This document shows positions 20,367-41,476 of a stretch of 41,893 nt of DNA, piece after piece. The notes under the pieces are model-generated. The model did not search any database and had not been told where the DNA came from. It saw nothing but the letters and a program-made list of their open reading frames with translations. The DNA is from Candidatus Methanofastidiosum methylothiophilum. GTDB lineage: Archaea; Methanobacteriota_B; Thermococci; Methanofastidiosales; Methanofastidiosaceae. The first letter of the stretch is position 1. Every line of letters begins with the position of its first letter. The translations under genes were made by a program, and so were the position numbers. The stretch is taken from the NCBI GenBank assembly GCA_001587595.1, contig LNJB01000001.1:101213-143105 (forward strand). The letters are read 5' to 3'.

Positions 20367-21725
20367 TTAGTATACATTTTCTAAGAAGGAAGATGCCCAA
20401 GAAGGTGCTCCACCGATATGTATGTGCAGATAAGACCCAATACATTTATTTTTTATTAAACCATCCCTCCCATTACTAATGCCTTTGCCCCTAAGAATCT
20501 TGTAAACAAAATCCTTTTTTTGAGGTGCAGGCTCTATTTTAGAATAATGAAATTCATGACCTTTGACGATATCTTTTAAGAAAAAATGTTTCTCTGTGGG
20601 TTGAGCGATAACATAACTTAAACCTTGCTTAGTTTTTTTCATTACAGTGCCCTCATCAAATATACCTGCCATTGGATATTTCGTATTCTCAACTTCTATG
20701 TACTTAGACAATACCATTAGGCCACCACATTCTCCATATATTGGTTTACATTCTTTAGAAGCTGACTTTAGATTGTTTAAAAAATCAGTGTTATTTGAAA
20801 TTTTTTCTGAGTAAACTTCTGGATACCCCCCACCAATATAGTAGCAGTCCGCCTCGGGCAAATCTTCGCCTTCAGTAGGTTTGAAATAAATAATTTTTGC
20901 ACCGTTTTCTTCCAAAGCCTCAATATTTTCCCTATAATAAAAGCTAAACGTCTTATCAAAAGGAATGCCCACTGTGATCCTATTATTTTTTAGTTCAGAA
21001 TTAACTTGAAATAAGAAACCTTCCCTTTTTTCCAAATTAGTTGCTTCTTTGGCAATCTCTTTTATCTTATCAATATCAAGAGAAGCTTCAATTTGCTTTC
21101 CAAGACCTTCCATTATTTCTTCTCTATCTTCTTTTTCAATCAAAGGTACAAGCCCAAGATGTCTTGAGCTAAGAGATATTGCACCTCTTTCAATACTTCC
21201 GATAATTTCAATGTCGGTAAAAGTTTTAATTGCCTTTTGTAACTTTTTAAAATGAGTATCATCTCTAACTTGATTTAGAATGACGCCCCTTATTTTAACA
21301 TTAGGATCTAGAGTTTGAAATCCCTTAATATAAGCCGCTGCACTTTTTGTCAATGAACGGACATTCATAACTAGAATAACTGGGGAATCCAATAATTTAG
21401 AAACATGTGAGGTCGATCCTATTTCATCGATAGGGTCAATTCCTTCATAAAGTCCTCTAACTCCTTCTATAATCGCAATATCTTTTTTTGAAGCGCCTCT
21501 TAAAAAATTTTCAATTAATGCGTCTTTTTCCATAAAAAAAGTATCTAGATTTCTTGAAAAGTTATCCGTAGCAAACCTATGGTAAATAGGATCAATAAAA
21601 TCCGGACCAACTTTGAATGGGGCAACATTATTCTTTTTAGATAAAGCTTTCATTATCCCACAAGAAATTGAAGTTTTACCCACTCCTGAGGCGGTTCCAG
21701 CAATTACGACCCTAGGGATATTCAA
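20367..21725 (-). CDS. cfbB: Ni-sirohydrochlorin a,c-diamide synthase CfbB
   Basis: This is a CbiA/CobB-type amidotransferase of 452 residues. It converts the a and c acetate side chains of Ni-sirohydrochlorin to amides using ATP and glutamine, the second step of F430 synthesis. The N-terminal ATPase part has the P-loop GTASGVGKTSIS, and the C-terminal glutaminase part has the nucleophile in YGECGGLMVL and the partner histidine in SYLHIHIGG. Alone it could be mistaken for a cobyrinate a,c-diamide synthase; the cfbA-E-D-C neighbours decide it. The start is TTG 21723-21725, which overlaps the cfbC stop (TTGA), with GGAGG 6-7 nt upstream, so the two genes should be translationally coupled. It is the last gene of the operon. 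Confidence 0.93.
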   Translation of the reverse strand: MNIPRVVIAGTASGVGKTSISCGIMKALSKKNNVAPFKVGPDFIDPIYHRFATDNFSRNLDTFFMEKDALIENFLRGASKKDIAIIEGVRGLYEGIDPIDEIGSTSHVSKLLDSPVILVMNVRSLTKSAAAYIKGFQTLDPNVKIRGVILNQVRDDTHFKKLQKAIKTFTDIEIIGSIERGAISLSSRHLGLVPLIEKEDREEIMEGLGKQIEASLDIDKIKEIAKEATNLEKREGFLFQVNSELKNNRITVGIPFDKTFSFYYRENIEALEENGAKIIYFKPTEGEDLPEADCYYIGGGYPEVYSEKISNNTDFLNNLKSASKECKPIYGECGGLMVLSKYIEVENTKYPMAGIFDEGTVMKKTKQGLSYVIAQPTEKHFFLKDIVKGHEFHYSKIEPAPQKKDFVYKILRGKGISNGRDGLIKNKCIGSYLHIHIGGAPSWASSFLENVY

Positions 21726-22513
21726 TAAAATCCTCCGAGTATTGATCTTATTTTCTCATCTATTGTTGGGGTCGGAACTTTAGCTTTTTTATTTTGTAGT
21801 ATTTTTGATCCAATACTTTTAAATTTCAAATTAAGAGGATCATTTGGATATCTCTCAAGAACTGTTTTACCTTCAATTTCACTTTCATGTATTTTAGGAT
21901 TTCTTTCAATTGCTCCCATCAAGCCTGAATCTATCTCTTTAGCATAAGATTCAATCTTCTCTTCTTCTTTTGCTATACCTCTCATATTTCCTATTATTCC
22001 ACCTAACTTTACATTTAAGTTAAATAATCCTTTAACAATATTATTTGCTGCATAAATTGAAAGATATTCTCCACTGGTAACTATATATATTTCATCCGCA
22101 TATCCTTCCCTAGCTGGACCTGCAAATCCTCCGCAAACAACATCCCCTGGAACATCATAAATAACAACATCAAATCCTTTCTCAAGATAGTAATCCTTAT
22201 TAAGCGTTTTTAATGCAACTAGTATTCCTCTGCCTGCACATCCAACTCCCGCAGCAGGACCCCCTACTTCTACGGCTTTTACTCCATTATATCCTTCAAA
22301 AACAAGTTTGTCTGGATCTGTAATACCTTTTTTGTAAAGATCTAGTGCCGTATCTATCCTTTTCCCTCCAAATAGGTTAATTGTACTATCGCTCTTCGGG
22401 TCACATCCAACAAGTAAAACTTCAAGGCCATTTGAAGCCAAATTAACAGAAAGATTTGAAGATATCGATGACTTCCCTATTCCACCTTTTCCGTATATGG
22501 CAATCTGTTTCAT
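21722..22513 (-). CDS. cfbC: Ni-sirohydrochlorin a,c-diamide reductive cyclase, NifH-like subunit CfbC
   Basis: This 263-residue NifH homologue has the P-loop YGKGGIGKSS at residues 7-16. C92 (GCAGRG) and C127 (VVCGGF) are the two conserved ligands of the [4Fe-4S] cluster that bridges the dimer. It hydrolyses ATP and passes electrons to CfbD, which reduces Ni-sirohydrochlorin a,c-diamide by six electrons with lactam ring formation. The gene overlaps the end of cfbD by 4 bp and the start of cfbB by 4 bp. It lacks any NifK-type partner nearby, consistent with the F430 system rather than nitrogenase. No odd residues were seen. Confidence 0.96.
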   Translation of the reverse strand: MKQIAIYGKGGIGKSSISSNLSVNLASNGLEVLLVGCDPKSDSTINLFGGKRIDTALDLYKKGITDPDKLVFEGYNGVKAVEVGGPAAGVGCAGRGILVALKTLNKDYYLEKGFDVVIYDVPGDVVCGGFAGPAREGYADEIYIVTSGEYLSIYAANNIVKGLFNLNVKLGGIIGNMRGIAKEEEKIESYAKEIDSGLMGAIERNPKIHESEIEGKTVLERYPNDPLNLKFKSIGSKILQNKKAKVPTPTIDEKIRSILGGFY

Positions 22514-23586
22514 TGAATCCCCGCGATATTCCTTATCGCTTCACCAAGTTCGCTAAGAACAATTTCTCTCGTACCCATTACTGTAGAGTGTGAAGCTATT
22601 TCAACTGTCACATATTTGTATCCTGCATCCTCTAAAGGATGGACTTCCCTTGGGCCATTTGTTATGGCAATGGAATCTTTTTTTATAGTTGGCAATGCTT
22701 GTGGTATCCCTACTGCAACAAGGAGATCAAAATCTCTATCTTTTAGGTATTCTATTGCTTTTTTTCCTGCTATAGGATATTCATCCACGCCACCAGAGAT
22801 ATAATCAATTAAAATTCCACTAGATTCAAAATTATTGATAATATCTTTTGCATATCTCCTGATTCGTGACAATCCAATATCTGTAGAAAGATTAGCAATG
22901 TTAATAATTGAACCTCCATACTTTTTAGAAGCGAGATTAATTGCTAAAGGTATATCTGCAAAAAGATATGCAGTTTCTTTTTTTGCGTTTAGAACAACGG
23001 CTATTTTTTTATTTTCTTTTAGTTGACTGAGAATATATTCTGCAACAGTCTTAAGGTCTGCCCCTCTTGAAGGTCTCGTATATTTTGATTTTGCCATACC
23101 CTTGTTTAACTCAACTTCTGTAGCTAAGAGGAGCATCTTTTCCTGCCTTTGGAACTCTTTATCATCTATTAGGCCAAAATCTCTTGCAGCTTTTAGAGTC
23201 TCTATTGCACCCCTTGTATTTGCCCCCATGCAACCATGAATTTCTATAAAAAAAGCTTTATTGCTTAATCCAGAATCAATTATGGCTTTTTTGACGTTTT
23301 CACCAATTATCATACTAACACATGATCCAACTACGCCTATTATATTGGGAGAAAAGAGAGCGTCAACTTCTTTTAATACTTCAATTAATTTATCACTAGC
23401 TCCAAAAATTAAATCTTCTTCAGACATTGAAGTTGTGACCACTTTCATTCCATCTTCTTCGAGTAGTCTAGCTGCTCGAAATCCACAACCGGAAGGGCCA
23501 TGTAATACTGCGACATCAACATCAAGATCTCTCAAAGTATACAAAGCTGCAACAATCGGATTAGGTCTAGGAGTTAATATATTCAT
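22510..23586 (-). CDS. cfbD: Ni-sirohydrochlorin a,c-diamide reductive cyclase, NifD-like subunit CfbD
   Basis: CfbD is the catalytic subunit of the F430 reductive cyclase and is a NifD-like protein that works as a homodimer. The 358-residue protein contains LHGPSGCGFRAAR near the N-terminus, VVGSCVSMIIGEN and EIHGCMGANTRG, whose cysteines are candidates for binding the iron-sulfur cluster. The length fits the family, shorter than nitrogenase NifD. The frame extends to a GTG at 23601, but the GTGAT there serves as ribosome-binding site for ATG 23584-23586. It begins 4 bp after the cfbE stop and overlaps cfbC. Confidence 0.95.
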   Translation of the reverse strand: MNILTPRPNPIVAALYTLRDLDVDVAVLHGPSGCGFRAARLLEEDGMKVVTTSMSEEDLIFGASDKLIEVLKEVDALFSPNIIGVVGSCVSMIIGENVKKAIIDSGLSNKAFFIEIHGCMGANTRGAIETLKAARDFGLIDDKEFQRQEKMLLLATEVELNKGMAKSKYTRPSRGADLKTVAEYILSQLKENKKIAVVLNAKKETAYLFADIPLAINLASKKYGGSIINIANLSTDIGLSRIRRYAKDIINNFESSGILIDYISGGVDEYPIAGKKAIEYLKDRDFDLLVAVGIPQALPTIKKDSIAITNGPREVHPLEDAGYKYVTVEIASHSTVMGTREIVLSELGEAIRNIAGIQ

Positions 23587-23590
23587 ACTA

Positions 23591-24865
23591 TCACTTACCA
23601 CACTCTATTAAAAGATCCCCGTTATGTATATTAAGCTCAGCACTGTTTTTTAGGTATTTAAAGGTTTCAAAATCATTATTACCTATTAAAAATGCATTAT
23701 CAATAATATTGCTAAATTCTCCGACTGCTTTATCTAAGGAATGTAAATCTATTTTTTGGCAATGAGAAGTGTTAGTTAAATTAATAATTAAATTAATGTT
23801 TTTATAGAACATATCATAATTCTTTTTTAAAAGTGATAATGTGTATCGCAAACTATCTTCAGAAAAACCCCCCGATTTATCAATAATTTTTGTATAATTA
23901 GTTTCTTTTATAACTGATAATCTATTTGGAACCCCTCTAAAGTCATTAAGGTAATTAGATTTAATTAGTGAAATTTTATTGAGTATCTTTAAGGCCATAG
24001 TGCTAAATAAAATGGGATTTAAATAACCTACTGCTAGGTAACTTCCATGTAGCTTTGAATTAATCTCTAAATTTTCAGAATAAATTGTGGAATTAATATC
24101 ATTTCCGATTTCTAGATGGTCTGGCAAATCGATTTTGATATCCTCCCAAATTCGGAATATTTCTTTGTTGTAATTGTTTGCCAGTTCATTTGCAATCTTA
24201 TCTTTTGAATCAATTATTATTGCTCTATCTGATAATTTGAAAAGCTGTTTTTTTGCTTCTAGGGAAGTGGAGTTTCCTCCTTTTATTGGGTAAATAGGAT
24301 AAGTACTTGTTAAAATAGATATATCGGATATACCACACACACCCAAACTTTCCTCTAGAATCAAGTATTCAGTATGGGGTTCTGATAATATTTTTGCCGT
24401 ATATCCCGCCGATATTGAATTATTTGAGAAAATTTTATATGGAGTACCTTTGTGAAACTTTTCAAATCCTACAGAAGAGTTTAACAAGATATCCTCTTCA
24501 AATGATAGAAGAAATGCCAATAAATGCGCAGTGGTAGTTTTTCCTTTTGATCCCGTTATTTCAACAACATTTTTTTTATTTTTAAAATGGAGTTTAATTA
24601 ACTCATGATGAGTTAGTTTCTTATTTTTAGAAAAAGAAGAAAGAAAAAAATCTGGGCAATGTATGGGATATGATATTATGTAGTCTGTATAGTCTGCCCC
24701 ATCTAAAGAATCTAATACTTTAATATTTTTATTTTCAAGTTCTTGTCTAATTATTCCGCCTTTTTTGTATATGTCGTAGACAATTACTTCGTAGCCACAA
24801 TTCTTTAAAATTGCAGCTAGGTAGTTTCCTCCATGATTTATATCGAGAACAATGAATTTGTTCAT
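23591..24865 (-). CDS. cfbE: Coenzyme F430 synthase, Mur-ligase-like CfbE
   Basis: CfbE is a MurF-like ATP-dependent ligase that closes the carbocyclic F-ring of 15,17(3)-seco-F430 in the last step of F430 synthesis. The 424-residue protein has an N-terminal Rossmann-like part (NKFIVLDINHGGNYLAAIL), the ligase P-loop EITGSKGKTTTAHLLAF near residues 112-128, and a C-terminal ligase domain with LSVIKETNYTKIIDKSGG. It lacks the UDP-MurNAc context expected in bacteria. The start ATG 24863-24865 overlaps the cfbA stop as TAATG; the longer frame to 24892 runs into cfbA and is rejected. Sequence divergence in this family is high, so context adds much to the call. Confidence 0.92.
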   Translation of the reverse strand: MNKFIVLDINHGGNYLAAILKNCGYEVIVYDIYKKGGIIRQELENKNIKVLDSLDGADYTDYIISYPIHCPDFFLSSFSKNKKLTHHELIKLHFKNKKNVVEITGSKGKTTTAHLLAFLLSFEEDILLNSSVGFEKFHKGTPYKIFSNNSISAGYTAKILSEPHTEYLILEESLGVCGISDISILTSTYPIYPIKGGNSTSLEAKKQLFKLSDRAIIIDSKDKIANELANNYNKEIFRIWEDIKIDLPDHLEIGNDINSTIYSENLEINSKLHGSYLAVGYLNPILFSTMALKILNKISLIKSNYLNDFRGVPNRLSVIKETNYTKIIDKSGGFSEDSLRYTLSLLKKNYDMFYKNINLIINLTNTSHCQKIDLHSLDKAVGEFSNIIDNAFLIGNNDFETFKYLKNSAELNIHNGDLLIECGK

Positions 24866-25248
24866 TAGTATTTTTCCTGCACTCTGTCCCAAAGTATTTC
24901 AGCAATTCTTCTGTCGGGACCAATGGGTTCACAGTAAATTAATTTTACTTTCTTTCCATCTACATCAATAATACTTTTGCCATTTTGAAATCCACCGACT
25001 TCATTAGGGATATCTTCTGTTGTATGGACGCCCTTAGCAAGAAATACTGGAATTATATATAATTCATCAGCACCCTTCTTAGCAGCACTTCTTACCGCAT
25101 CCATTATTTTAGGGGTATTCATTTCCATGAAACCAATTTCAATGATTTTTCCATCGAAGTATTCTTTAAAAATTTCTGATAGCTTTATTAGAAGCTCTTT
25201 GTTATAACTTAGTCTACTTCCATGTCCAACTAATATTGCACCTTTCAT
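24865..25248 (-). CDS. cfbA: Sirohydrochlorin nickelochelatase CfbA
   Basis: CfbA is the short CbiX-type chelatase that inserts Ni(II) into sirohydrochlorin to begin F430 synthesis; it can also insert cobalt. At 127 residues it is the short form that dimerises. The metal-binding histidines are seen at H9 (LVGHGSR) and H75 (GVHTTEDIP). No histidine-rich loop is present. It is the first gene of the operon in the order A-E-D-C-B, with every junction overlapping or within 4 bp. The ATG is preceded by GAGGTG and by the tandem GTGTTAC region described separately, so nickel-responsive control is predicted. Confidence 0.96.
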   Translation of the reverse strand: MKGAILVGHGSRLSYNKELLIKLSEIFKEYFDGKIIEIGFMEMNTPKIMDAVRSAAKKGADELYIIPVFLAKGVHTTEDIPNEVGGFQNGKSIIDVDGKKVKLIYCEPIGPDRRIAEILWDRVQEKY

Positions 25249-25330
25249 TTATTACACCTCAAATATATCGTGTTACTTAATTGATTATATGTGTTACTTT
25301 ATCTAGTCCTAGTAACTTTTAAAGGTTTTG
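25249..25330 (-). promoter_or_regulatory. cfb operon promoter with tandem GTGTTAC operator
   Basis: Two GTGTTAC motifs lie at 25270-25276 and 25291-25297 as direct repeats with a 21-bp period. A partial inverted half, GTAAC, lies at 25312-25316, again at a 21-bp step. Read on the gene's strand, an AGATAAAG TATA-like element abuts the distal motif, and GAGGTGTAATAA precedes the cfbA ATG. The layout is nearly the same as upstream of the ABC importer's binding-protein gene. GTGTTAC with a 13-14 bp spacer and GTAACAC has been reported for a NikR operator, from memory, which supports a nickel regulator. Binding is inferred. Confidence 0.6.
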
Positions 25331-25451: not shown

Positions 25452-25802
25452 ATGTCTAAAATCTTAATAGTTGAAGATTATAAAGATTTATCGGATTTTT
25501 ATCAAGAATTTTTAGAAGGTGATATATTATTCACAGCTTCAGATGGAGAAACTGCAGTTTCATTTTATAGAGAATATAATCCAGACGTAGTGCTTATGGA
25601 TCTAAAACTCCCAAAGAAAAGCGGTATTGATGCAATTAAAGAGATTTTACAATTTGACCCTAAAGCAAAGATAATTGCTATAACAGCTTATGGCTCTACT
25701 ATTGGTTCTAAGGCTTTAGAAGCTGGAGCAAAAGAAGTTTTAAGAAAACCGATTAGATTTAATGAATTAAAAGATATTATAGAAAAATATAAATCGTATT
25801 GA
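25452..25802 (+). CDS. Single-domain response regulator (CheY-like receiver)
   Basis: The 116-residue protein is a receiver domain and nothing else. The acidic pocket is at E8 and D9 (VEDYKD), the phosphoacceptor is D50 (VVLMDLKLP), with T78 in IAITAYG and K99 in VLRKPIRF, so all the phosphorylation machinery is intact. There is no output domain and no histidine kinase in the window. Its partner may be the TPR protein 28 bp downstream on the same strand. GTGAT lies just before the ATG. Whether it serves cell signalling, motility or nickel or F430 control cannot be told from the sequence. Confidence 0.92.
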   Translation: MSKILIVEDYKDLSDFYQEFLEGDILFTASDGETAVSFYREYNPDVVLMDLKLPKKSGIDAIKEILQFDPKAKIIAITAYGSTIGSKALEAGAKEVLRKPIRFNELKDIIEKYKSY

Positions 25803-25830
25803 ACTTATTTAGAATTATTGAGGTAATAAA

Positions 25831-26994
25831 GTGATTTCTAAAAATCAAGATGATTCTTTTAAGGTACTCTGGGATAACACCACATATAAAGCAATTACAT
25901 ATTACAATGAAGGGAAATACAATGAAGCATTAGCGCTTGCAAAACTTTCAATTGACATTGCAAAAAAAATATACGGTAGGGAAAGTACTAAAGTTGCTAT
26001 TTCTATGAACAATCTTTCATTGATATATGATGCTCAAGGAAAATTTGAAGAAGCAGAATATCTCTCAATTGAATCACTTAAAATATGGAAAAATCAATTA
26101 GGCCCAGACGATCCGAATATTGCTACCTCTTTGAACAATCTTGCAGGTATTTACGTATCTAGGGGTAAATATAAAGAAGCTGAATCACTGTATGAGAGAT
26201 CTTTAGAGATTAAGCAAAAAGTTTTTGGTGAAAATCACGTTGAAATTGCTACAAGTTATAATAACTTAGCCGATCTTTATCGCTTAGAGAAGAAATACAA
26301 TGAGGCAGAATCTCTTTATAACAAAGCTATTGGGATATTTGAAAAAACAAAAAATAATAAGAATCCGGACATTGGATCATCTTTTAACAATCTTGCAGAA
26401 ATACTTAAAATTAAGGGCCAGTACGATGAAGCATTGAAGTTGTATAAAAAAGCCTTTGAAATATGGAAAACATCTTATGGCCCAGATCATCCAGACATAG
26501 CTACAGCAATAAATAATATAGCTGGAATTTATTATCTCGAAGGGAATTATGCTGAAGCTGAAAAACTTTACAAAGAAGTACTAAAAATTGATGAAAAAAT
26601 ATATGGCCAAAATCACCATTACAATGCAATGACCTTCAATAATATTGCTTTAGTTAAAGAGGGAATGGGGCAATATGAGGATGCTGAAAAGTATTTTAAA
26701 GAAGCTATTGAAATATCTCAAAATACTTTAGGAAAAACACATCCTTCTCTAGTAATCTATTTGAATAATGTTGCAGGTTTATATAGGGCAAAAGAAAGAT
26801 ATAAAGAAGCAGAATTTTATTTTAAAAGGGGACTTTTAGTTCTGGAAAAAGCATTTGGCACTTCTAGTCCTGATGTAGCAATGGCATTATTAAATCTAGC
26901 TGAAATGTACGATTCAATTGGAAGAGTTGAAGAAGCAAAAAGATTTTCTGAAAGTGCAAAAAGTATATATAAAAAAGCTTTTAAAAATAGTTAA
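25831..26994 (+). CDS. Kinesin-light-chain-type tetratricopeptide repeat protein
   Basis: The 387-residue protein is built almost wholly of about eight 42-residue TPR units of the kinesin-light-chain or NB-ARC-associated type. Examples are IATSLNNLAGIYVSRGKYKEAE, IATSYNNLADLYRLEKKYNEAE and IATAINNIAGIYYLEGNYAEAE. There is no signal peptide, membrane segment or enzymatic domain, so it is a cytoplasmic protein-binding scaffold. The start is GTG 25831 with GAGGTA about 5 nt upstream. It follows the receiver-domain gene by 28 bp, which makes a signalling partnership plausible. The repeats have diverged in sequence, so they are not a recent duplication. The binding partner is unknown. Confidence 0.85.
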   Translation: MISKNQDDSFKVLWDNTTYKAITYYNEGKYNEALALAKLSIDIAKKIYGRESTKVAISMNNLSLIYDAQGKFEEAEYLSIESLKIWKNQLGPDDPNIATSLNNLAGIYVSRGKYKEAESLYERSLEIKQKVFGENHVEIATSYNNLADLYRLEKKYNEAESLYNKAIGIFEKTKNNKNPDIGSSFNNLAEILKIKGQYDEALKLYKKAFEIWKTSYGPDHPDIATAINNIAGIYYLEGNYAEAEKLYKEVLKIDEKIYGQNHHYNAMTFNNIALVKEGMGQYEDAEKYFKEAIEISQNTLGKTHPSLVIYLNNVAGLYRAKERYKEAEFYFKRGLLVLEKAFGTSSPDVAMALLNLAEMYDSIGRVEEAKRFSESAKSIYKKAFKNS

Positions 26995-31951: not shown

Positions 31952-32716
31952 CTATTTATAGCCTATAAAGTTATTTTTATTTTTTAAAGAATTGAATTTA
32001 GTAAATTCTTTCGTATCTCCTTGAAAAATAATTGATCCCTTATCTAAAACGACTACCTTATCAGACATAAATTCGATTAAAGGTATGTTATGAGATATCA
32101 AAAGATATCCAAAATTATTTTCCTTTTGTAGATTATTCAAAAGTTCAAGTATCTGAGCCTGGACTGCAATATCCAGAGCTGAAGTTGGTTCATCCAAAAT
32201 AACATATTCTGGTTTTACTAAAAGTATTCTTGCAAGCGCCACTCTTTGATTTTGCCCTCCTGAAATTTGATGTGGGTATCTGCAAAAAATATCAGAGGAA
32301 AGCCCTACCCTATCAAGTAATTCAAGTATTAAGGATTCCCCTTTAAATACGTCCAATCCCATCAGATTTGCTGTTTCGTAAAGGGATTGTTTTATGGTTT
32401 TTTTCGGATTTAAAGATCCTTGAGAATCTTGGAAAACCATTTTAATTTTTTTCAAAGAGATATTCCTATCTTCTGAAGAAATATGCCATATATCAGTTCC
32501 TTCTATTAAAATTTTACCAGAGGTTGGCTTTTCCAATCCCATAATTATCTTTGCAAGTGTTGTTTTCCCTACACCAGATGGGCCTATCAAGCCAACTGTT
32601 TTTCCCTTTGTGATTTCTAAAGATATATCTGAAAGGATTTTATCATATCTTTTAGAAAATAATCCATAAGAATAAGATTTTGAAACACAATCAACGACTA
32701 CTGAAATAAGTAACAC
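31952..32716 (-). CDS. Opp/Dpp/Nik-type ABC transporter ATPase, second subunit (NikE/OppF-like)
   Basis: The 254-residue ATPase has Walker A GPSGVGKTTLAK near residue 43, a Q-loop in VFQDSQGSLNP, signature ISGGQNQRVALARIL, Walker B YVILDEPTSALD and a switch histidine in LLISHNIPLIEF. The SLNP after the Q-loop is typical of the oligopeptide/nickel subfamily. Its start is GTG 32714-32716, inside the end of the previous ATPase gene (19-bp overlap), with GGGGA upstream. It is the last gene of the importer operon. The substrate cannot be read from the ATPase; see the promoter and binding-protein entries for the nickel argument. Confidence 0.88.
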   Translation of the reverse strand: MLLISVVVDCVSKSYSYGLFSKRYDKILSDISLEITKGKTVGLIGPSGVGKTTLAKIIMGLEKPTSGKILIEGTDIWHISSEDRNISLKKIKMVFQDSQGSLNPKKTIKQSLYETANLMGLDVFKGESLILELLDRVGLSSDIFCRYPHQISGGQNQRVALARILLVKPEYVILDEPTSALDIAVQAQILELLNNLQKENNFGYLLISHNIPLIEFMSDKVVVLDKGSIIFQGDTKEFTKFNSLKNKNNFIGYK

Positions 32717-33636
32717 CTCACATCCCCTTCATCAATAGAATAAATAGGCGGTGTTTTTTCACTGCATATTTTCTTTTTATGTGGACATCTTGGATGAAAT
32801 TTACAGCCCTTTGGTATATTTACCATAGAGGGGGAATTACCTTTAGGGGGATTAAAACCTCTTTCAGGTAAACTATTTAAAAGAATCTTTGAGTATGGGT
32901 GAAGAGGGTTTTTAAAAAAAGACTCTGTTTTCGTAATTTCAACTATGTCCCCTGAATACATTATAATAATTCTATCAGATAATTCTCTTGCAATGGATAG
33001 ATCATGTGTTATTAGAAGAAGGGAAGAATTATTAATTTTATTTACAGTTTTAAACTCTTCAATTATATCTCTAACAAGTTCGTTGTCAAGACCTTTTGTT
33101 GGTTCATCTGCAATAATAATTGAAGGATTTAATGTCAAGGAAATAGAAAGAAGAACTCTCTGATTCATGCCCCCTGATAATTGGTGTGGATACATTCCGG
33201 TAAACTTTGAAGGATTTTGAAATCCCATTGTTTTTAACAATTTTTTTGTTTTGGTGAAAGCTTCTTTTTTATTTATTTTTTTGTGCACTAATAAGGGTTC
33301 TGAAATCTGATCGCCAATTTTGTATAAAGGATTTAAGGACAAAGTAGGATTTTGGAATATTATGGCTATTTCTTGCTGTCTTGTCTTTTCCATTTCACGA
33401 TCAGACATTTTTAATAAATTATTTCCTTTATAAAATATATTTCCAGAGATCTCTGCATTTTGAGGCAATAGCCTAATTATAGTATTTGCAATGACTGATT
33501 TACCACATCCTGTTTCGCCCACTAAAGCAAGTGTTTCATTAGCATTAAGGCTAAATGAAGCATTATTTACCGCATAAACTTCCCCGATTGGGGTAGTGAA
33601 CTTAACATTTAAATCTTGAATCTCTAGTATTTTCAT
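32698..33636 (-). CDS. Opp/Dpp/Nik-type ABC transporter ATPase, first subunit (NikD/OppD-like)
   Basis: The ATPase has about 312 residues. Walker A is GETGCGKSVIA near residue 40, the Q-loop is IIFQNPTLSLNP, the signature is LSGGMNQRVLLSISL, Walker B is IIIADEPTKGLD and the switch histidine is in LLITHDLS. The C-terminal oligopeptide-transporter extension has the usual cysteines (GCKFHPRCPHKKKICSEKTPP). The start is ATG 33634-33636, with GTGAT just upstream; the frame also opens at a TTG at 33648. It overlaps the second ATPase gene and lies 4 bp after the stop of the permease gene. Confidence 0.9.
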   Translation of the reverse strand: MKILEIQDLNVKFTTPIGEVYAVNNASFSLNANETLALVGETGCGKSVIANTIIRLLPQNAEISGNIFYKGNNLLKMSDREMEKTRQQEIAIIFQNPTLSLNPLYKIGDQISEPLLVHKKINKKEAFTKTKKLLKTMGFQNPSKFTGMYPHQLSGGMNQRVLLSISLTLNPSIIIADEPTKGLDNELVRDIIEEFKTVNKINNSSLLLITHDLSIARELSDRIIIMYSGDIVEITKTESFFKNPLHPYSKILLNSLPERGFNPPKGNSPSMVNIPKGCKFHPRCPHKKKICSEKTPPIYSIDEGDVRCYLFQ

Positions 33637-33640
33637 TCTA

Positions 33641-34489
33641 TCACTCAAGCCCCAATACTATATTCTCTTTCTCTTCAAGTGAGAATCCTATTAGCATAAG
33701 TGAGAAAACAACTGCAACTATGCATAATCCAGGCGGTAAATACCACCACCACATTTCATTGATAAGGCCTCCCTTCATAAATGCAAAATTAAGCATCATA
33801 CCCCAACTCTTCATAGTGGGATCTCCCAGGCCTAAAAAGGATATTGATGCTTCCGAAAACATTGCGGATGCTATTGTCAACATAAACTTTGGGATAATAA
33901 CATGATTAATATTTGGCAAAATCTCAGATAAAATAATATGTTTATCGCTAAAGCCTAATGATTTTACACTCAAAATAAAAGAGGCGTCTCTTATTTGCAT
34001 AGTTGAAGATCTTACAACTCTCGCTGTTGTAGGCCACCACAAGAAACCTATTAATAGCATTATTAACCAAAAATTAGGCCTCATTAATGCTGCCAGAATT
34101 ATAATGAGGGGTATTCTTGGGATCATTAAGTATATGTCTGTGATGGCCATAAGTATCTCATCCATCATGCCACGATAATAACCTGATACAATTCCAATAA
34201 TTACTCCTAATACAGTAGCAATGATAGATGCACCAAATCCAACTATTAAACTGACTCTAGCCCCAAATAATAATTCAGATAGAATATCATTACCCATATC
34301 ATTTGTTCCTAGAAAATGAGAGCTATTTGGTGGAATATATGGTTCAAATCTTATCCAAGGATTGTAAGGTGAAATTATTCCTGCTGCAATAGCTATGAAA
34401 AGAAAAAGTAAGAAAATAGTAATACCAATTGCATTAAGATTGAGCTTAGAAATTGCATACTTCTTAAGCTCTTCTATGTGATGGGTCAT
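33641..34489 (-). CDS. Opp/Dpp/Nik-type ABC transporter permease (NikC/OppC-like)
   Basis: The 282-residue permease has an N-terminal membrane helix (AIGITIFLLFLFIAIAAGII), then the FLGTNDMGNDILSELLFGARVSL segment typical of OppC/DppC/NikC, about five more helices, and the cytoplasmic EAA coupling loop (SVKSLGFSDKHIILSEILPN) that contacts the ATPases. The start ATG overlaps the stop of the other permease gene (ATGA). No feature by itself separates peptide from nickel transport. Confidence 0.9.
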   Translation of the reverse strand: MTHHIEELKKYAISKLNLNAIGITIFLLFLFIAIAAGIISPYNPWIRFEPYIPPNSSHFLGTNDMGNDILSELLFGARVSLIVGFGASIIATVLGVIIGIVSGYYRGMMDEILMAITDIYLMIPRIPLIIILAALMRPNFWLIMLLIGFLWWPTTARVVRSSTMQIRDASFILSVKSLGFSDKHIILSEILPNINHVIIPKFMLTIASAMFSEASISFLGLGDPTMKSWGMMLNFAFMKGGLINEMWWWYLPPGLCIVAVVFSLMLIGFSLEEKENIVLGLE

Positions 34490-35433
34490 ACAGAATCACT
34501 TATCCTTGGATCAATTATGCCATACAAAAAATCAACGAAGGCATTTGCTAAAACTGCCATTATACTAATAATCATAAAAGAACCATATAAAACTGGATAA
34601 TCTCTAGAAAGTAACGCCTCATAAATAAGATTCCCCATCCCGTTCATTGAGAAGATGATCTCAATAAACAATGCACCGCTTAAAATGAAACCAAAATCAA
34701 GAGCAAGTAGTGTTAAAAGTGGCAACGATGCATTCTTAAAAATATGTTTGAATAAAACTTGCCGATCAGACAATCCTTTTGCTTTTGCGTATACTACGTA
34801 AAGTTTAGATTTTTCTTGAATTACACTACCCCTCATAATCATGTAATTTCTTGAAGTAAGGAATATGGTCATTATACTTATTGGAAGGAAGAAGTGATGT
34901 AGTATATCTAAGATGCCTCCTGAGTAATAAAATCCTTTAATTGGAAATAATCCTAATTTAAAAGAGAATATATACAAAAATATGAGAGATAAGAAAAAAG
35001 TAGGTGTAGAATAAAAAGCCAATTCTATTAATGTAAGTGTTTTATAGGAATTTGAAGAAGATTTTTGTCCAGATATTGAACCCATTAAAGAGCCAAGTAT
35101 TGCACTAAACAATATTGAAGGTATCAGTAACAGTAATGTCCACTTCATTCTCGAAAGGATAATAGAAGACACCGGTCCTTTAAAATGATAAGAATACCCA
35201 AAGTCAAATCTAAATACGCCATTCCAATAATTAAGATACTGTATTGGAAGGGATTCATCAAGCCCCATTTTTTCTCTCAATTCTTGCAATGATTCTTCAG
35301 TCATGACATAATCTTCACCTAAAAGATTTGTGATAGGATCCCCAGGCATTAATCTAGGGATAATGAAATTTAAAGAAAAAATGACAAACAAGGCAATCAA
35401 GTAACGTGCTATTTTTTTTGAACGCATTTTCAT
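34486..35433 (-). CDS. Opp/Dpp/Nik-type ABC transporter permease (NikB/OppB-like)
   Basis: The permease has about 315 residues. Its first helix IARYLIALFVIFSLNFIIPRLMPGDPI ends in the MPGDP motif that marks OppB/DppB/NikB. It has about six helices, an EAA-type loop (AKAKGLSDRQVLFKHIFKNA), and a FSMNGMGNLIYEALLSRDYPV segment at the last helices. I chose ATG 35431-35433, preceded by AAGGGATT; the longer frame to 35490 only adds residues antisense-like in character and overlaps the methyltransferase gene. It lies 17 bp after the methyltransferase stop codon. Confidence 0.9.
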   Translation of the reverse strand: MKMRSKKIARYLIALFVIFSLNFIIPRLMPGDPITNLLGEDYVMTEESLQELREKMGLDESLPIQYLNYWNGVFRFDFGYSYHFKGPVSSIILSRMKWTLLLLIPSILFSAILGSLMGSISGQKSSSNSYKTLTLIELAFYSTPTFFLSLIFLYIFSFKLGLFPIKGFYYSGGILDILHHFFLPISIMTIFLTSRNYMIMRGSVIQEKSKLYVVYAKAKGLSDRQVLFKHIFKNASLPLLTLLALDFGFILSGALFIEIIFSMNGMGNLIYEALLSRDYPVLYGSFMIISIMAVLANAFVDFLYGIIDPRISDSV

Positions 35434-35450
35434 ATAATCCCTTTGTGAAT

Positions 35451-36227
35451 TTATTTTATTAAATATAACAAAGCATCTTTTCTTTGGCAAAGAACTTCAT
35501 AGAAATTTTGTTTTTTGATTAGCCTATTATTCTCATTTAAATAGTTGAATATTTCATCTTCTGTTTTTATTGAATATGGATACGATCTATACACAAAAGG
35601 TAAAGGAAGTTTGTAATCAGAAGTAAAAATCTCTACATTAAATATATATCCCATTTCAGATAATATATTGTAAAGATGTAAAAAATCTACAGAGTTTTTA
35701 TTATTATATACATATTCTCTCAAAGGGTCACCCCTCCCTGCCCTAAAAACTAAAAAAATGCCTTTTGTGGCCACATATATTAATTTTTCAAGAAAAGAGT
35801 AAATGTCATCTTCAAAGAAGCTGTATGCAGCAAGAGAGTAATCTACGTGCCCAATTTCGTATTTAGACACATTTTTCCATTCTTTCTCAATATACAAAAT
35901 ATTGTCACATTTATCGGCTTCCGCTTTAGACTTCAGGATACTAAGCTGATAAGGGGAAGGATCTAAAGCTATCAATTTATTGGATATTTTTGAAAGGGGT
36001 AATGCAAAAGCACCTGCTCCCGATCCAATATCAAGTAAAATGTCTTCGGGAAAAATAAAAGTAGATATCCTGTCTAATATTTTTCCAGGATATCCGGAAT
36101 ACTTCATGAGTTCATCGTAATAGTCCAAATTTTTCCAAAAATCGTTGTTAGAGATACCTTTTTCGTTTAGTATCTTTAGATAGCTTGATTCTTTAATTGA
36201 ACTATTCCACTCTTCCGACCAATTCAT
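35451..36227 (-). CDS. Class I SAM-dependent methyltransferase in the ABC importer operon
   Basis: The protein has 258 residues from ATG 36225-36227, which overlaps the stop codon of the binding-protein gene as TAATG. Motif I is LLDIGSGAGAFALPLS at about residues 64-79, followed by the acidic LIALDPSPYQL and a motif-IV-like HVDYSLAAYSFF. It is a class I Rossmann methyltransferase. The N-terminal 60 residues are charged and unassigned. Its position between the binding protein and the permeases, tightly coupled on both sides, suggests it acts on the transported compound or its carrier, for example a metal-chelating small molecule. The substrate is not known, and it does not look like nicotianamine synthase. 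Confidence 0.8.
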   Translation of the reverse strand: MNWSEEWNSSIKESSYLKILNEKGISNNDFWKNLDYYDELMKYSGYPGKILDRISTFIFPEDILLDIGSGAGAFALPLSKISNKLIALDPSPYQLSILKSKAEADKCDNILYIEKEWKNVSKYEIGHVDYSLAAYSFFEDDIYSFLEKLIYVATKGIFLVFRAGRGDPLREYVYNNKNSVDFLHLYNILSEMGYIFNVEIFTSDYKLPLPFVYRSYPYSIKTEDEIFNYLNENNRLIKKQNFYEVLCQRKDALLYLIK

Positions 36228-37816
36228 TATGATGCCTTCTGAAGATTTAAGAAAGTTTCTGTGTTGTAGATTCCAAACAAAGGATCTACATACCACCCGC
36301 TGAATTTTTTGCTATATGGGGTTATATTCTCGTTCCAGTAAAGTGTTATGCCGGGTAAATTATCCGAGTAGTAGTCTTGTAAATCATAAGCATATATTTT
36401 CAGTTTACCAGAATCAGTTGTAGATAAAATATTATCACATATTTTTAGAAATTCTGGATCACTAAGATTATGCAAGACTCCTTCTCCTGTTCTCCTTGAA
36501 TCAAAGTACCCTGATCCCCACTGTGCATGCATTAGCATTCCCCAAGGTGTTGTTCTTGTTATGGTGAGGTCATAATAATATTTGTCTTTTAAGGATATCC
36601 ATGTGCTTGAGTCAACGGATTTTAGAGTAGTTTCAATTCCTACTTTCTTTAGATAATCTTGTACTAACTCCCCAGAACGGACATATTCTGGACGGAGAAG
36701 CATAATAAGTTTAATATCCTTTCCGTCAGTAGTTTCTAAGATTCCATTCCCATTGCCATCCTTGTAACCTGCTTCATTGAGCAATTGTTTAGCTTTTTCT
36801 AAATTATACTCTAATTTAGGCGTTTCTTTATAAAACTCCATTGTAGGGGGGACAAATCCTCTATTTGGTGCTGTACCGTATCCTAATGCATCAATTTTAG
36901 CTATTTCGTCATAATTAATTGCGTAGGATATTGCATTTCTAAAGTTTACGTCAGACATTGGTTGTCTCTGTAAATTCATTCCAAGGAATATTAAGCCAAC
37001 ATTCATTTTTTTAATGGTAGCATATTTTCCGGTATCAATCAATTTTTGTATATTGGAATAAGGATAGCTGCCAGCGTATTTGTAATAAACATCTAAGGTT
37101 CCGTTTTCAAGATCTAGTGCTAATGCGTCGTTAGTTTTATACATATGAATTTCTATTGTATCTACAACTGATTGTTTTCCTTTCCAATAAGGATTTTTTT
37201 TCAAGGTTACTATCTGAGAATCTAGATTTACATTAGATATAAAAAACGGGCCGCATCCGACATAGTTATCAATTTGAATATAGTTCATAGGGTCTTGAAT
37301 TGATTCCCAAACATGTTTTGGAAGGATATTATAGGTGGTAAATTCTAGATTAGTTCTTGTGTATGGCTCAGTAAATAAAATTTCTACAGCATTTTCTTCA
37401 GGAATTACAGTAACAGCTTTAAGACGTTGTTTAATCCAACCTGCATAAGGTATTTTATTTGCATAGTATTCTACAGAGAATTTAACATCCTCTGGAGTTA
37501 CTTTTTTTCCGTCACTCCAATATAGCTCAGGATTAATATAAAACTTCCAGACTTTGTCATTATTTGATGCTTCGTATTTTGTTGCCATATTTCCTATAAT
37601 TTTTCCATTTTCATCCATTTTAGTTAGAGTCAAATTAGAAATCTTTGAGAAAACGCCTAAATTTGTATCAAAGAAATTTGCAGCTTTAATTGTATTCGGG
37701 CTTCCTATTTTTATGGTAGTAGTAGTAGTTTTTTCTGGTGTACCTTGATTTACGCATCCAACTATAAGAGAAATGCATAGTATGGACATTAATACAATAC
37801 TTAAACCTTTATTCAT
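36227..37816 (-). CDS. ABC transporter substrate-binding lipoprotein, family 5 (NikA/OppA-like)
   Basis: The 529-residue protein starts with a lipoprotein-type signal (LSIVLMSILCISLIVGC, lipid cysteine C21), then a threonine-rich linker and a family-5 binding-protein fold with the VWKFYINPELYWSDGKKVTPEDV segment near residue 85. Family 5 members bind peptides, nickel complexes, haem or metallophores. The likely role here is nickel or a nickel complex, because its promoter has the same paired GTGTTAC layout as the nickel-using cfb operon. This is inference, and a peptide role remains possible. The ATG is preceded by GGAGGTG. It leads the operon binding protein, methyltransferase, permease, permease, ATPase, ATPase. 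Confidence 0.88.
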   Translation of the reverse strand: MNKGLSIVLMSILCISLIVGCVNQGTPEKTTTTTIKIGSPNTIKAANFFDTNLGVFSKISNLTLTKMDENGKIIGNMATKYEASNNDKVWKFYINPELYWSDGKKVTPEDVKFSVEYYANKIPYAGWIKQRLKAVTVIPEENAVEILFTEPYTRTNLEFTTYNILPKHVWESIQDPMNYIQIDNYVGCGPFFISNVNLDSQIVTLKKNPYWKGKQSVVDTIEIHMYKTNDALALDLENGTLDVYYKYAGSYPYSNIQKLIDTGKYATIKKMNVGLIFLGMNLQRQPMSDVNFRNAISYAINYDEIAKIDALGYGTAPNRGFVPPTMEFYKETPKLEYNLEKAKQLLNEAGYKDGNGNGILETTDGKDIKLIMLLRPEYVRSGELVQDYLKKVGIETTLKSVDSSTWISLKDKYYYDLTITRTTPWGMLMHAQWGSGYFDSRRTGEGVLHNLSDPEFLKICDNILSTTDSGKLKIYAYDLQDYYSDNLPGITLYWNENITPYSKKFSGWYVDPLFGIYNTETFLNLQKAS

Positions 37817-37880
37817 AAATTACACCTCCAAATTGTGTTACTGATATAGAATTCGTGTTACTTATAAAGTTTTGTATTTA
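37817..37880 (-). promoter_or_regulatory. ABC importer promoter with tandem GTGTTAC operator
   Basis: GTGTTAC occurs at 37835-37841 and 37855-37861 as direct repeats with a 20-bp period. On the gene's strand the distal copy abuts the TATA-like TTTATAAG (37861-37868), and GGAGGTG precedes the ATG of the binding-protein gene. The arrangement mirrors the cfbA promoter, including the leader sequence (GGTGTAAT before both ATGs). Repression by a regulator covering the TATA box is the simplest reading. Confidence 0.6.
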
Positions 37881-37960: not shown

Positions 37961-38578
37961 ATGACATACGTGATTAGAAGTAGTGGAAAAAAGGAAGAAT
38001 TTGATGGAGACAAACTAATTGCTTCAATTATGGAGGCAGCAAATAATGCAGGCATAATGAATCAAATGGGTATTGAAGACCTCATCAAAAGTATTTCATC
38101 CAACACCATTTCTTATGCACGAACTCAAAAAGAAGTTCAATCAAAAACATTGAGTGATGTTATATTGGCCCAAATATTGAAAATAGGAATCCAAATGGCC
38201 ATGCAAAAATTTGGGGCCAATGTATCTAAAGAAAATATATTACATGAACTAATAAATGCAGGATTACAAATATCTAATCAAAATACACAGTCTAATGATC
38301 TTCTAAGTCAACTACTAAGTGCAAGTACAGCTAAAAGCTCATCACAATCTAACGATCTTCTAAGTCAACTACTAAGTGCAAGTACAGATAAAAGCTCATC
38401 ACAATCTAACGATCTTCTAAGTCAACTACTAAGTGCAAGTACAGATAAAAGCTCATCACAATCTAACGATCTTCTAAGTCAACTACTAAGTGCAAGTACA
38501 AGAAAAAATAGTTCAAATCAAGATCTGGGTGAAATGTTAATAGCCGGCATGAAACTAGCTAATGCTTTGATGAAATAG
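37961..38578 (+). CDS. ATP-cone domain protein with a 19-residue tandem repeat
   Basis: The 205-residue protein begins with an ATP-cone domain (YVIRSSGKKEEFDGDKLIASI... to about residue 90). This is the nucleotide-sensing module of ribonucleotide reductases and NrdR, here without either partner domain. Residues about 111-180 are a low-complexity tandem array of a 19-residue unit (SNDLLSQLLSASTDKSSSQ and near copies), then a short helical tail. The function is unknown; it may be a nucleotide-responsive scaffold or regulator. A TATA-like TTTTATATG stretch about 30 bp upstream of the ATG and the lack of a Shine-Dalgarno site suggest a leaderless transcript. Confidence 0.7.
   Translation: MTYVIRSSGKKEEFDGDKLIASIMEAANNAGIMNQMGIEDLIKSISSNTISYARTQKEVQSKTLSDVILAQILKIGIQMAMQKFGANVSKENILHELINAGLQISNQNTQSNDLLSQLLSASTAKSSSQSNDLLSQLLSASTDKSSSQSNDLLSQLLSASTDKSSSQSNDLLSQLLSASTRKNSSNQDLGEMLIAGMKLANALMK
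38291..38500 (+). repeat. 57-bp coding minisatellite (3 full copies plus a partial fourth)
   Basis: Copies begin at 38291, 38348, 38405 and 38462. The second and third are identical, the first differs from them at two bases (AAT/AAC and GCT/GAT codons), and the fourth keeps 39 bases before diverging. The period is a multiple of three, so gain or loss of a copy preserves the reading frame. The near identity at silent positions shows recent expansion. Confidence 0.95.
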
Positions 38579-39571: not shown

Positions 39572-41476
39572 TTAAATGCCAAGTTTTTTTCTCTTTGATT
39601 CAATGTGAGAGAGCATTCCCTCAGCTGCTTTTACAGGATCTTTCTCAACATTTAATATTCCTCCAGTAACATCTTTGCAATCAACTGTCAAAAGTTTTAC
39701 TAAATTTGGGCCCCCAGTAACAGGAGGAACCGGATTTACATATGTATATAATCCAAATGCTAGGGCAAATATTGCATCTATAGTTGCTTTTTGTTCCATA
39801 TACTCTGGTGCAACTGCTACAACAGGTAAATCTTTTACAGATACATCCCCTAAAGCTTTTGAGATTACTCCAATTAGATCTGCAAGTCTACCAACATCAG
39901 TACAAGTTCCATAACTTAGCACAGGAGGTGTGTTTAAAATACTACATAATTTTTTTAATCCTGGTCCAGCTAAATCTTTAGCTTCTAGGCTACATAATCC
40001 ACCTACTTGCACAGCACTGTTTCCGCAACCTAAAGACAAAACTAATATATCTCTCTTGATCAACTCTTTAACTATTCTTATTGTATGAACATCTTGGCCA
40101 GAATCTCTTAAAGAAGTGCAAGAAACCATTCCTGCTACTCCCCTTATCGTCCCATCCTTTATTGCATTTAGAAGTGGCTCAATTGTTCCTCCTAAAGTTT
40201 CAACTATACTTTCAGTAGAGAATCCAACTATTGCCTCTTTTATTGGAAATCCTAAAACAGGCTTAATTGAGCTTCTTCTTTCTTTGAAGTTATCGATTGC
40301 CATCTGCAATAATGATGCAGCTTGAATCTCTGCTTCTTCTGGTAAATAGTTTATCCTTTCTTTAATACCTTCAAATGCCACAACTTCGCTTACAGGTATT
40401 AATTTGAATTTGTATTTTTCTGCATATATGGGATCAATTGGCATGGAACAATTCATATCTGCCACAAAAATGTCTATACATCCGCTTGCCATTATCGCTT
40501 CTTGCATTATCCAATTTCCTGTAAATCCGTAGAAAACATCATCCATCTCCCATCTTTGGATCATCTCTTGGCCCGTTTCAATATTTGCAATTATCCTAAG
40601 GCCTTTGGCCCCAACTTTTTTGGCTTTCTGTTGCCATTCTTCTTTTCTCGCAAGTTGAATCATTGCAAAACCCAAAAAAGGTTCATGCCCATTAGGTATG
40701 ACGTTTACATAATCTGGATCCAATACACCTAGGTCGACTCTCATTTTATGTGGTCTTGGTATTCCAAAAAGAATATCTTGTGAAAATTCATTAATAATCT
40801 GGCTTTGGTAAGCCATTGCTATTCCAAGTCTCATTGCTTTTAATGCTAAGCTTACATAATATCCATCAACATTAGTAAGACAAGAACTTGTAGAGAGCAT
40901 TATCTCTCCATGAATCCCTCCAGGAAATATCCCAATTTTCTTCCATGAATCTTTTCTTTCTTTTGGGGCTAATAACTCTACAATTTTACTTGGTTCGGAG
41001 TATTTTCTGTTAAAATCATCTTCAACAAAGTCACAGAAATCCAATGCTATTTCTTTAATGTTACCTTTAGAATCTATTCCAAGTCTTTCAGCAAATGATT
41101 TCAGTTTAGAAGATTCTTTTATTTGAAAAGGAGTTTCTCCCTTTGCCGTTGCTCTAAGAGTTTTTATTGTTTGCTCAGTATGGTATTGGTAAGTTGATGC
41201 ACCTAATACATTTCTTAGGAGCATCATTCTCATTGCCATACCATCTGCAGTAATTCCACAAGCTCCTCTTTTATCAATCGATGCATCAGAGCGGCATGGA
41301 CCGTTTGAACAAAGATCGCACCTTGTTCCTCCTTGGCAAAAAGGACATCTTTTATCAGGATCACCAGCGAATCCTTGAGACTCGTACCTATCCCATATGT
41401 TTGTTATTTTATCCTCTTTGATTTTTTCATACATTTTTTTTACAGATTCATGATATGATATTCTATCTCCTTCCAT
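39572..41476 (-). CDS. cooS: Anaerobic Ni-CO dehydrogenase catalytic subunit (CooS-like), with a variant C-cluster
   Basis: The 634-residue protein is a homologue of CooS, which oxidises CO reversibly at a [Ni-4Fe-4S] C-cluster. N-terminal cysteines for the B and D clusters are at C44, C47, C53, C56, C61 and C73. Of the six C-cluster ligands of the well-studied CODH-II, five align with H264, C343, C453, C484 and C525. The position equivalent to C295 aligns with glutamate E300 (IANIETGQE, where others have GICCTGNE). K563 matches the conserved acid-base lysine. The activity is therefore uncertain. No CooF, CooC or acetyl-CoA synthase subunit is visible. The start ATG has GAGGA upstream and a TATA box at 41501-41512. 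Confidence 0.92.
   Translation of the reverse strand: MEGDRISYHESVKKMYEKIKEDKITNIWDRYESQGFAGDPDKRCPFCQGGTRCDLCSNGPCRSDASIDKRGACGITADGMAMRMMLLRNVLGASTYQYHTEQTIKTLRATAKGETPFQIKESSKLKSFAERLGIDSKGNIKEIALDFCDFVEDDFNRKYSEPSKIVELLAPKERKDSWKKIGIFPGGIHGEIMLSTSSCLTNVDGYYVSLALKAMRLGIAMAYQSQIINEFSQDILFGIPRPHKMRVDLGVLDPDYVNVIPNGHEPFLGFAMIQLARKEEWQQKAKKVGAKGLRIIANIETGQEMIQRWEMDDVFYGFTGNWIMQEAIMASGCIDIFVADMNCSMPIDPIYAEKYKFKLIPVSEVVAFEGIKERINYLPEEAEIQAASLLQMAIDNFKERRSSIKPVLGFPIKEAIVGFSTESIVETLGGTIEPLLNAIKDGTIRGVAGMVSCTSLRDSGQDVHTIRIVKELIKRDILVLSLGCGNSAVQVGGLCSLEAKDLAGPGLKKLCSILNTPPVLSYGTCTDVGRLADLIGVISKALGDVSVKDLPVVAVAPEYMEQKATIDAIFALAFGLYTYVNPVPPVTGGPNLVKLLTVDCKDVTGGILNVEKDPVKAAEGMLSHIESKRKKLGI

Follow-up and report, generated by a model that had tools for sequence, protein, structure and literature searches.

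The NikR signal predicted in delta-proteobacteria is GTGTTAC-[N13/14]-GTAACAC, with reversed half-site orientation reported for Desulfotalea as well as Desulfovibrio (Rodionov et al. 2004, PMC545781). In E. coli, the NikR-nikABCDE operator is GTATGA-N16-TCATAC (as quoted in PMC7055735), and in the case of ParB/omega of pSM19035, a ribbon-helix-helix (RHH) protein, each dimer occupies a single heptamer, and direct as well as inverted order is tolerated (PMC9499535).

Here we analyzed a window of 41,893 nucleotides, the whole stretch of DNA under study, from an uncultured methanogen, a Candidatus Methanofastidiosum species with a 1.495-Mb genome, assigned to this genus by its cfbA relatives, which are 83-96% identical and named Methanofastidiosum or Methanofastidiosia. 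The window contains paired heptamers that are very probably operators of the nickel-responsive repressor NikR, controlling the cfbAEDCB operon and a NikA/Opp-type ABC importer. F430 is the nickel cofactor required by MCR, the enzyme that forms methane. A conserved operator of this kind would place nickel uptake and the insertion of nickel into F430 under a single metal sensor, addressing the question of how F430 synthesis is matched to nickel supply in cells.

The sequence-only reading of this DNA had pointed to a GTGTTAC pattern for NikR from another lineage; the pattern is real and is the delta-proteobacterial signal (PMC545781). The host resembles that case in its identical heptamer, 13/14-bp spacing, nickel transport targets and encoded NikR, whereas it is archaeal, has TATA promoters, carries head-to-tail pairs at cfbA and the importer, and has F430 biosynthesis as an apparent target. 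The E. coli nik operator likewise stands before a NikA-type importer and separates its two half-sites by about two turns of the helix, but its half-site is different, its arrangement inverted rather than direct and its promoter bacterial. ParB/omega of pSM19035 parallels the proposed NikR binding in being an RHH protein whose 7-bp repeats may be direct or inverted, but its heptads are contiguous, its dimers lack the tetrameric metal-binding core and its function is plasmid partition. Control of F430 synthesis by NikR would be new, as would operators built as direct repeats: in the literature we searched, nothing links NikR to cfb genes and no direct-repeat NikR operator is described, the latter counting against NikR as the reader.

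Paired heptamers before the cfb operon and an ABC importer

The cfb genes and their upstream region comprise the following features:

25316..25325, minus strand: putative cfb operon TATA box, CCTTTAAAAG (best archaeal TATA match, conserved in the genus)
25312..25318, no strand: GTAACTT, the third half-site proposed by the sequence-only reading, overlapping the promoter edge
25270..25297, minus strand: predicted cfbA operator, GTAACAC-N14-GTAACAC in cfbA sense (pattern match and genus conservation)
24865..25248, minus strand: cfbA, sirohydrochlorin nickelochelatase (NF033198, 137.4 bits against a cut-off of 120; PF01903)
23591..24892, minus strand: cfbE, F430 synthase, Mur-ligase-like (NF033197, 190.9 bits, best match, below the cut-off of 250)
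22510..23601, minus strand: cfbD, reductive cyclase catalytic subunit (TIGR03282, 456.7 bits against a cut-off of 268)
21722..22513, minus strand: cfbC, NifH-like reductase subunit (NF033200, 327.8 bits, best match, below the cut-off of 402)
20367..21725, minus strand: cfbB, Ni-sirohydrochlorin a,c-diamide synthase (NF033195, 552.7 bits, cut-off 560)

The set CfbA-CfbE is thus complete in one operon, cfbAEDCB, with CfbA and CfbD above their cut-offs and CfbB, CfbC and CfbE identified as best matches slightly to moderately under theirs. On the plus strand, the operator reads GTGTTAC at 25270-25276 and 25291-25297. The pair is exact in nine of the ten genus genomes, always at N14, and the tenth (G037) departs by one mismatch, reading GTAACAC-N14-GTAGCAC. 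Aligning the ten cfbA leaders, we found that the blocks conserved near the gene correspond to both heptamers, the Shine-Dalgarno sequence and the TATA box (TTTAAAA), while the spacer drifts. Family f2, from the same order, has CfbA-like homologues, and none of the loci taken for them has a pair within 2 mismatches.

Two further elements had been proposed in the cfbA leader. At 25312, GTAAC is indeed present, but a functional third half-site was rejected, as the nearest relative has GCTACT there and other relatives nothing alike; the resemblance is probably due to chance. The leader stretch GGTGTAAT, thought to be an element shared with the importer, proved to be the Shine-Dalgarno sequence (GAGGTG/GGAGGTG), which also precedes nikR, a gene without the operator, and we discarded it as a regulatory stretch. 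Divergent from cfbA, at 25452-26994, lie a response-regulator receiver gene and a TPR-repeat gene, an arrangement kept in the genus.

The importer operon carries the second pair:

37835..37861, minus strand: predicted importer operator, GTAACAC-N13-GTAACAC in importer sense (pattern match and conservation)
36227..37816, minus strand: substrate-binding protein of the NikA/DppA/OppA family (best NCBIfam model Opp5A_nikA, E=6e-37)
35451..36296, minus strand: SAM-dependent methyltransferase (PF13649)
31952..35490, minus strand: permease and ATPase block
34486-35490 and 33641-34489, minus strand: permeases (NikB/C/D/E- and Opp-like matches below equivalog cut-offs)
32698-33648 and 31952-32716, minus strand: ATPases (NikB/C/D/E- and Opp-like matches below equivalog cut-offs)

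On the plus strand the importer pair reads GTGTTAC at 37835-37841 and 37855-37861, so that all four copies reported by the sequence-only reading (starting at 25270, 25291, 37835 and 37855) are exact, with starts 21 bp apart (N14) at cfbA and 20 bp apart (N13) at the importer, as it had said. The pair is kept, always at N13, in all four genus genomes with a readable upstream region, that of a fifth importer copy being lost at a contig end. The best matches of the importer are nickel and oligopeptide models, and every nickel-specific family stays below its cut-off, a point against the proposed nickel regulon; the binding protein falls far below the cut-off of Opp5A_nikA, and its PDB relatives are a mixture of nickel-binding and peptide-binding proteins. 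Nickel specificity is suggested mainly by the shared operator. The methyltransferase gene is situated between the binding-protein and permease genes and is kept in a further genome of the genus (L116); a metal chelator is a possible substrate of its product. Divergent from the importer, at 37961-38578, is a gene for a short NrdR/ATP-cone-like protein that adjoins the importer in other genus genomes too. Further along, at 39572-41476, the nickel enzyme carbon monoxide dehydrogenase (CODH), of the CooS type, is encoded without a NikR-like pair, a point against NikR as the reader.

Both pairs lie at or just downstream of a TATA box, the usual place for archaeal repressors. The earlier statement that the distal copy abuts the TATA box holds at the importer (CTTTATAAG) and fails at cfbA, where CCTTTAAAAG ends 18 bp upstream of the distal half-site and the pair occupies the predicted region of the transcription start. 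By this distance, part of the cfbA pair may fall in the 5' leader, as it would if the heptamers acted within the cfb and importer mRNAs, as a riboswitch or leader hairpin, instead of as a DNA operator. We consider an RNA element of this kind extremely improbable: an Rfam search of 20000-41893 gave no match, and the heptamer is found on either strand at sister genes and, compared with cfbA, stands some 20 bp closer to the TATA box at the importer, both of which are at odds with a strand-specific RNA signal.

Frequency and spacing of the pairs

We then asked how often such pairs occur, using pattern searches for genome-wide counts and, for comparison, genomes that are largely metagenome assemblies. 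The window has 7 copies of GTGTTAC against 1.67 expected, and none of 100 shuffles reaches 7. The 1.495-Mb genome has exactly two direct GTGTTAC pairs with N12-15, one before cfbA and one before the importer, and the reversed-pattern control gave none. Twelve genome-sized Markov simulations with the same dinucleotide make-up contained no pair in any orientation. Across ten genus genomes, we counted 25 exact pairs at N13/14 (cfbA 9, THUMP/DUF192 8, importer 4, cbiM 4) versus 0 at the 30 other spacings from N15 to N44.

A short motif in an AT-rich genome invites the reading that the pairs are chance or a simple AT-rich repeat. The simulations, the restriction to two spacings and the genus-wide conservation refute it, leaving a probability we regard as negligible. 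The scans of genome and relatives that had been suggested as checks on the nickel regulon thus both came out in its favor: direct pairs are far above chance and in the host genome stand only before cfbA and the importer, and they are kept upstream of these genes across the genus. Half-site type and 13-14 bp spacing are those of a NikR operator. The inverted repeat of such an operator is absent from cfbA and the importer, both of which have direct repeats, as the sequence-only reading had already flagged; inverted heptamer pairs are present elsewhere in the genus.

NikR proteins and a model for operator reading

A search for the regulator, also suggested earlier, identified a canonical NikR of 139 amino acids (contig C4; PF08753, 99.2 bits; NF003381, 175.5 against a cut-off of 105) with an RHH domain and a NikR_C metal-binding domain. 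Its closest solved structure is P. horikoshii NikR (E=3e-43; PDB 2bj1), which has the same four ligand residues, and His79, His90, His92 and Cys98 are invariant in alignment with P. horikoshii-type NikR. No pair lies upstream of nikR in the host genome; we therefore rejected autoregulation of nikR, and its absence counts against NikR as the reader of the pairs. With pairs above chance and conserved in the genus, and NikR encoded, the earlier model of a NikR-like repressor over uptake and the chelatase pathway appears largely right.

The genome also encodes a second NikR-family protein (G000:C16:6604-6996, L095), whose gene closes a Znu-like ABC operon. This protein, perhaps responsive to zinc or another metal, could read the pairs in place of canonical NikR: it is present in all ten genus genomes, it retains the metal ligands, a related divergent site stands at a ZnuA-type gene, and in Methanothermobacter a NikR beside ZnuABC has been suggested to be zinc-responsive (PMC3087415). 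By analogy, it is possibly a zinc-type sensor. However, it lacks the RHH arginine and the RFGVSI strand, its own operon on contig C16 has no pair within 2 mismatches, and the same half-sites occur in family f3 and in Thermococcaceae, nearly all of which have one NikR match. We judge it unlikely to be the reader. Because the second operon has no pair and the Thermococcaceae, mostly with a single NikR, share the half-sites, canonical NikR is the likely reader.

Based on these features, we propose that a nickel-loaded NikR tetramer would contact both GTGTTAC copies, each through one of its RHH dimers, from a single face of the DNA and at a distance of two helical turns. Nickel-bound NikR would cover the promoters of cfbAEDCB and the importer and block transcription when cellular nickel is sufficient; under nickel shortage the repressor would come off, and uptake and the nickelochelatase/F430 pathway would rise together. 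Here nickel dependence, DNA binding and repression are what we infer from the genomes. The opposite sign, activation by nickel, is conceivable, and the promoter position would argue for repression.

The direct repeats may be accommodated by the symmetry of the protein. GTGTTAC and its complement GTAACAC have GTnnnAC in common, with the difference limited to the three central bases, and the RHH dimer has two-fold symmetry; at equal spacing, a head-to-tail pair should therefore be bindable much like an inverted one. The simplest account is that each dimer would read the quasi-palindromic heptamer GTnnnAC regardless of its orientation.

Related sites in the genus and in Thermococcaceae

To survey related sites, we searched 101 genomes of the host's class for pairs matching the degenerate pattern GTRWYAC at N13/14. 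Matches in the genus were nearly all exact GTGTTAC/GTAACAC pairs, and their orientation was gene-specific: cfbA and the importer have direct pairs, the cbiM-PDGLE-cbiQ-cbiO cluster is preceded by a convergent one, and a divergent one at N14 separates a THUMP-domain gene from DUF192-TatD genes, in the host genome too. The cbiM cluster encodes an ECF nickel/cobalt importer, and the site before it supports a nickel regulon. A divergent N13 pair, partly degenerate, precedes a ZnuA-type binding-protein gene in the genus, and exact divergent pairs precede the same gene in the sister family f3. This stand-alone protein (L078, L080, L086, L090, L092-L094) has a PGxCPxHFD motif and possibly belongs to a nickel-binding branch of the ZnuA family.

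The THUMP/DUF192-TatD site, GTAACAC-N14-GTGTTAC, was found in 8 of the 10 genus genomes (L076:1086-1113 on host contig C12, L077, L081, L083-L085, L087 and L091), and its leader contains a hairpin-like inverted repeat. The locus has no evident nickel link, which counts against NikR as the reader. It could instead point to an unrelated transcription factor that answers metal or cofactor demand, since this target has no known nickel role and NikR binding is deduced from sequence. We hold such a factor to be very unlikely: half-site and spacing equal the published NikR signal, the targets include CbiM, CooC-like and cfbA genes, and in three Thermococcaceae genomes a site adjoins nikR itself.

Returning to NikR as the reader, pair orientation, spacing and TATA distance each differ by gene and are all conserved across the genus. 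Within a single genome, one NikR might read direct, convergent and divergent pairs, with these gene-specific settings producing graded nickel responses that tune F430 synthesis separately from uptake; this extension is tentative, and we give it rather less than an even chance. With all three half-site orientations occurring naturally at a fixed spacing, the long-assumed inverted-repeat requirement of NikR becomes directly testable.

Thermococcaceae repeatedly show the form GTGTTAC-N14-GTGATAC, placed directly upstream of start codons. NikR operators of Thermococcales had no description in the literature we searched, and the sites given here are predictions of a NikR regulon. Their targets are FmdE-like genes, an iron/metal-type binding protein and ATPases resembling CooC, the nickel-insertion ATPase of CODH. 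Nearly all Thermococcaceae have a single NikR match, of the canonical type in those read, and the site separates nikR from its target gene in G044, G055 and G076. An exact direct pair precedes cbiM in one Thermococcaceae genome (L023), and the sites at the FmdE-like, CooC-like and binding-protein genes (L096-L115) overlap their Shine-Dalgarno sequences.
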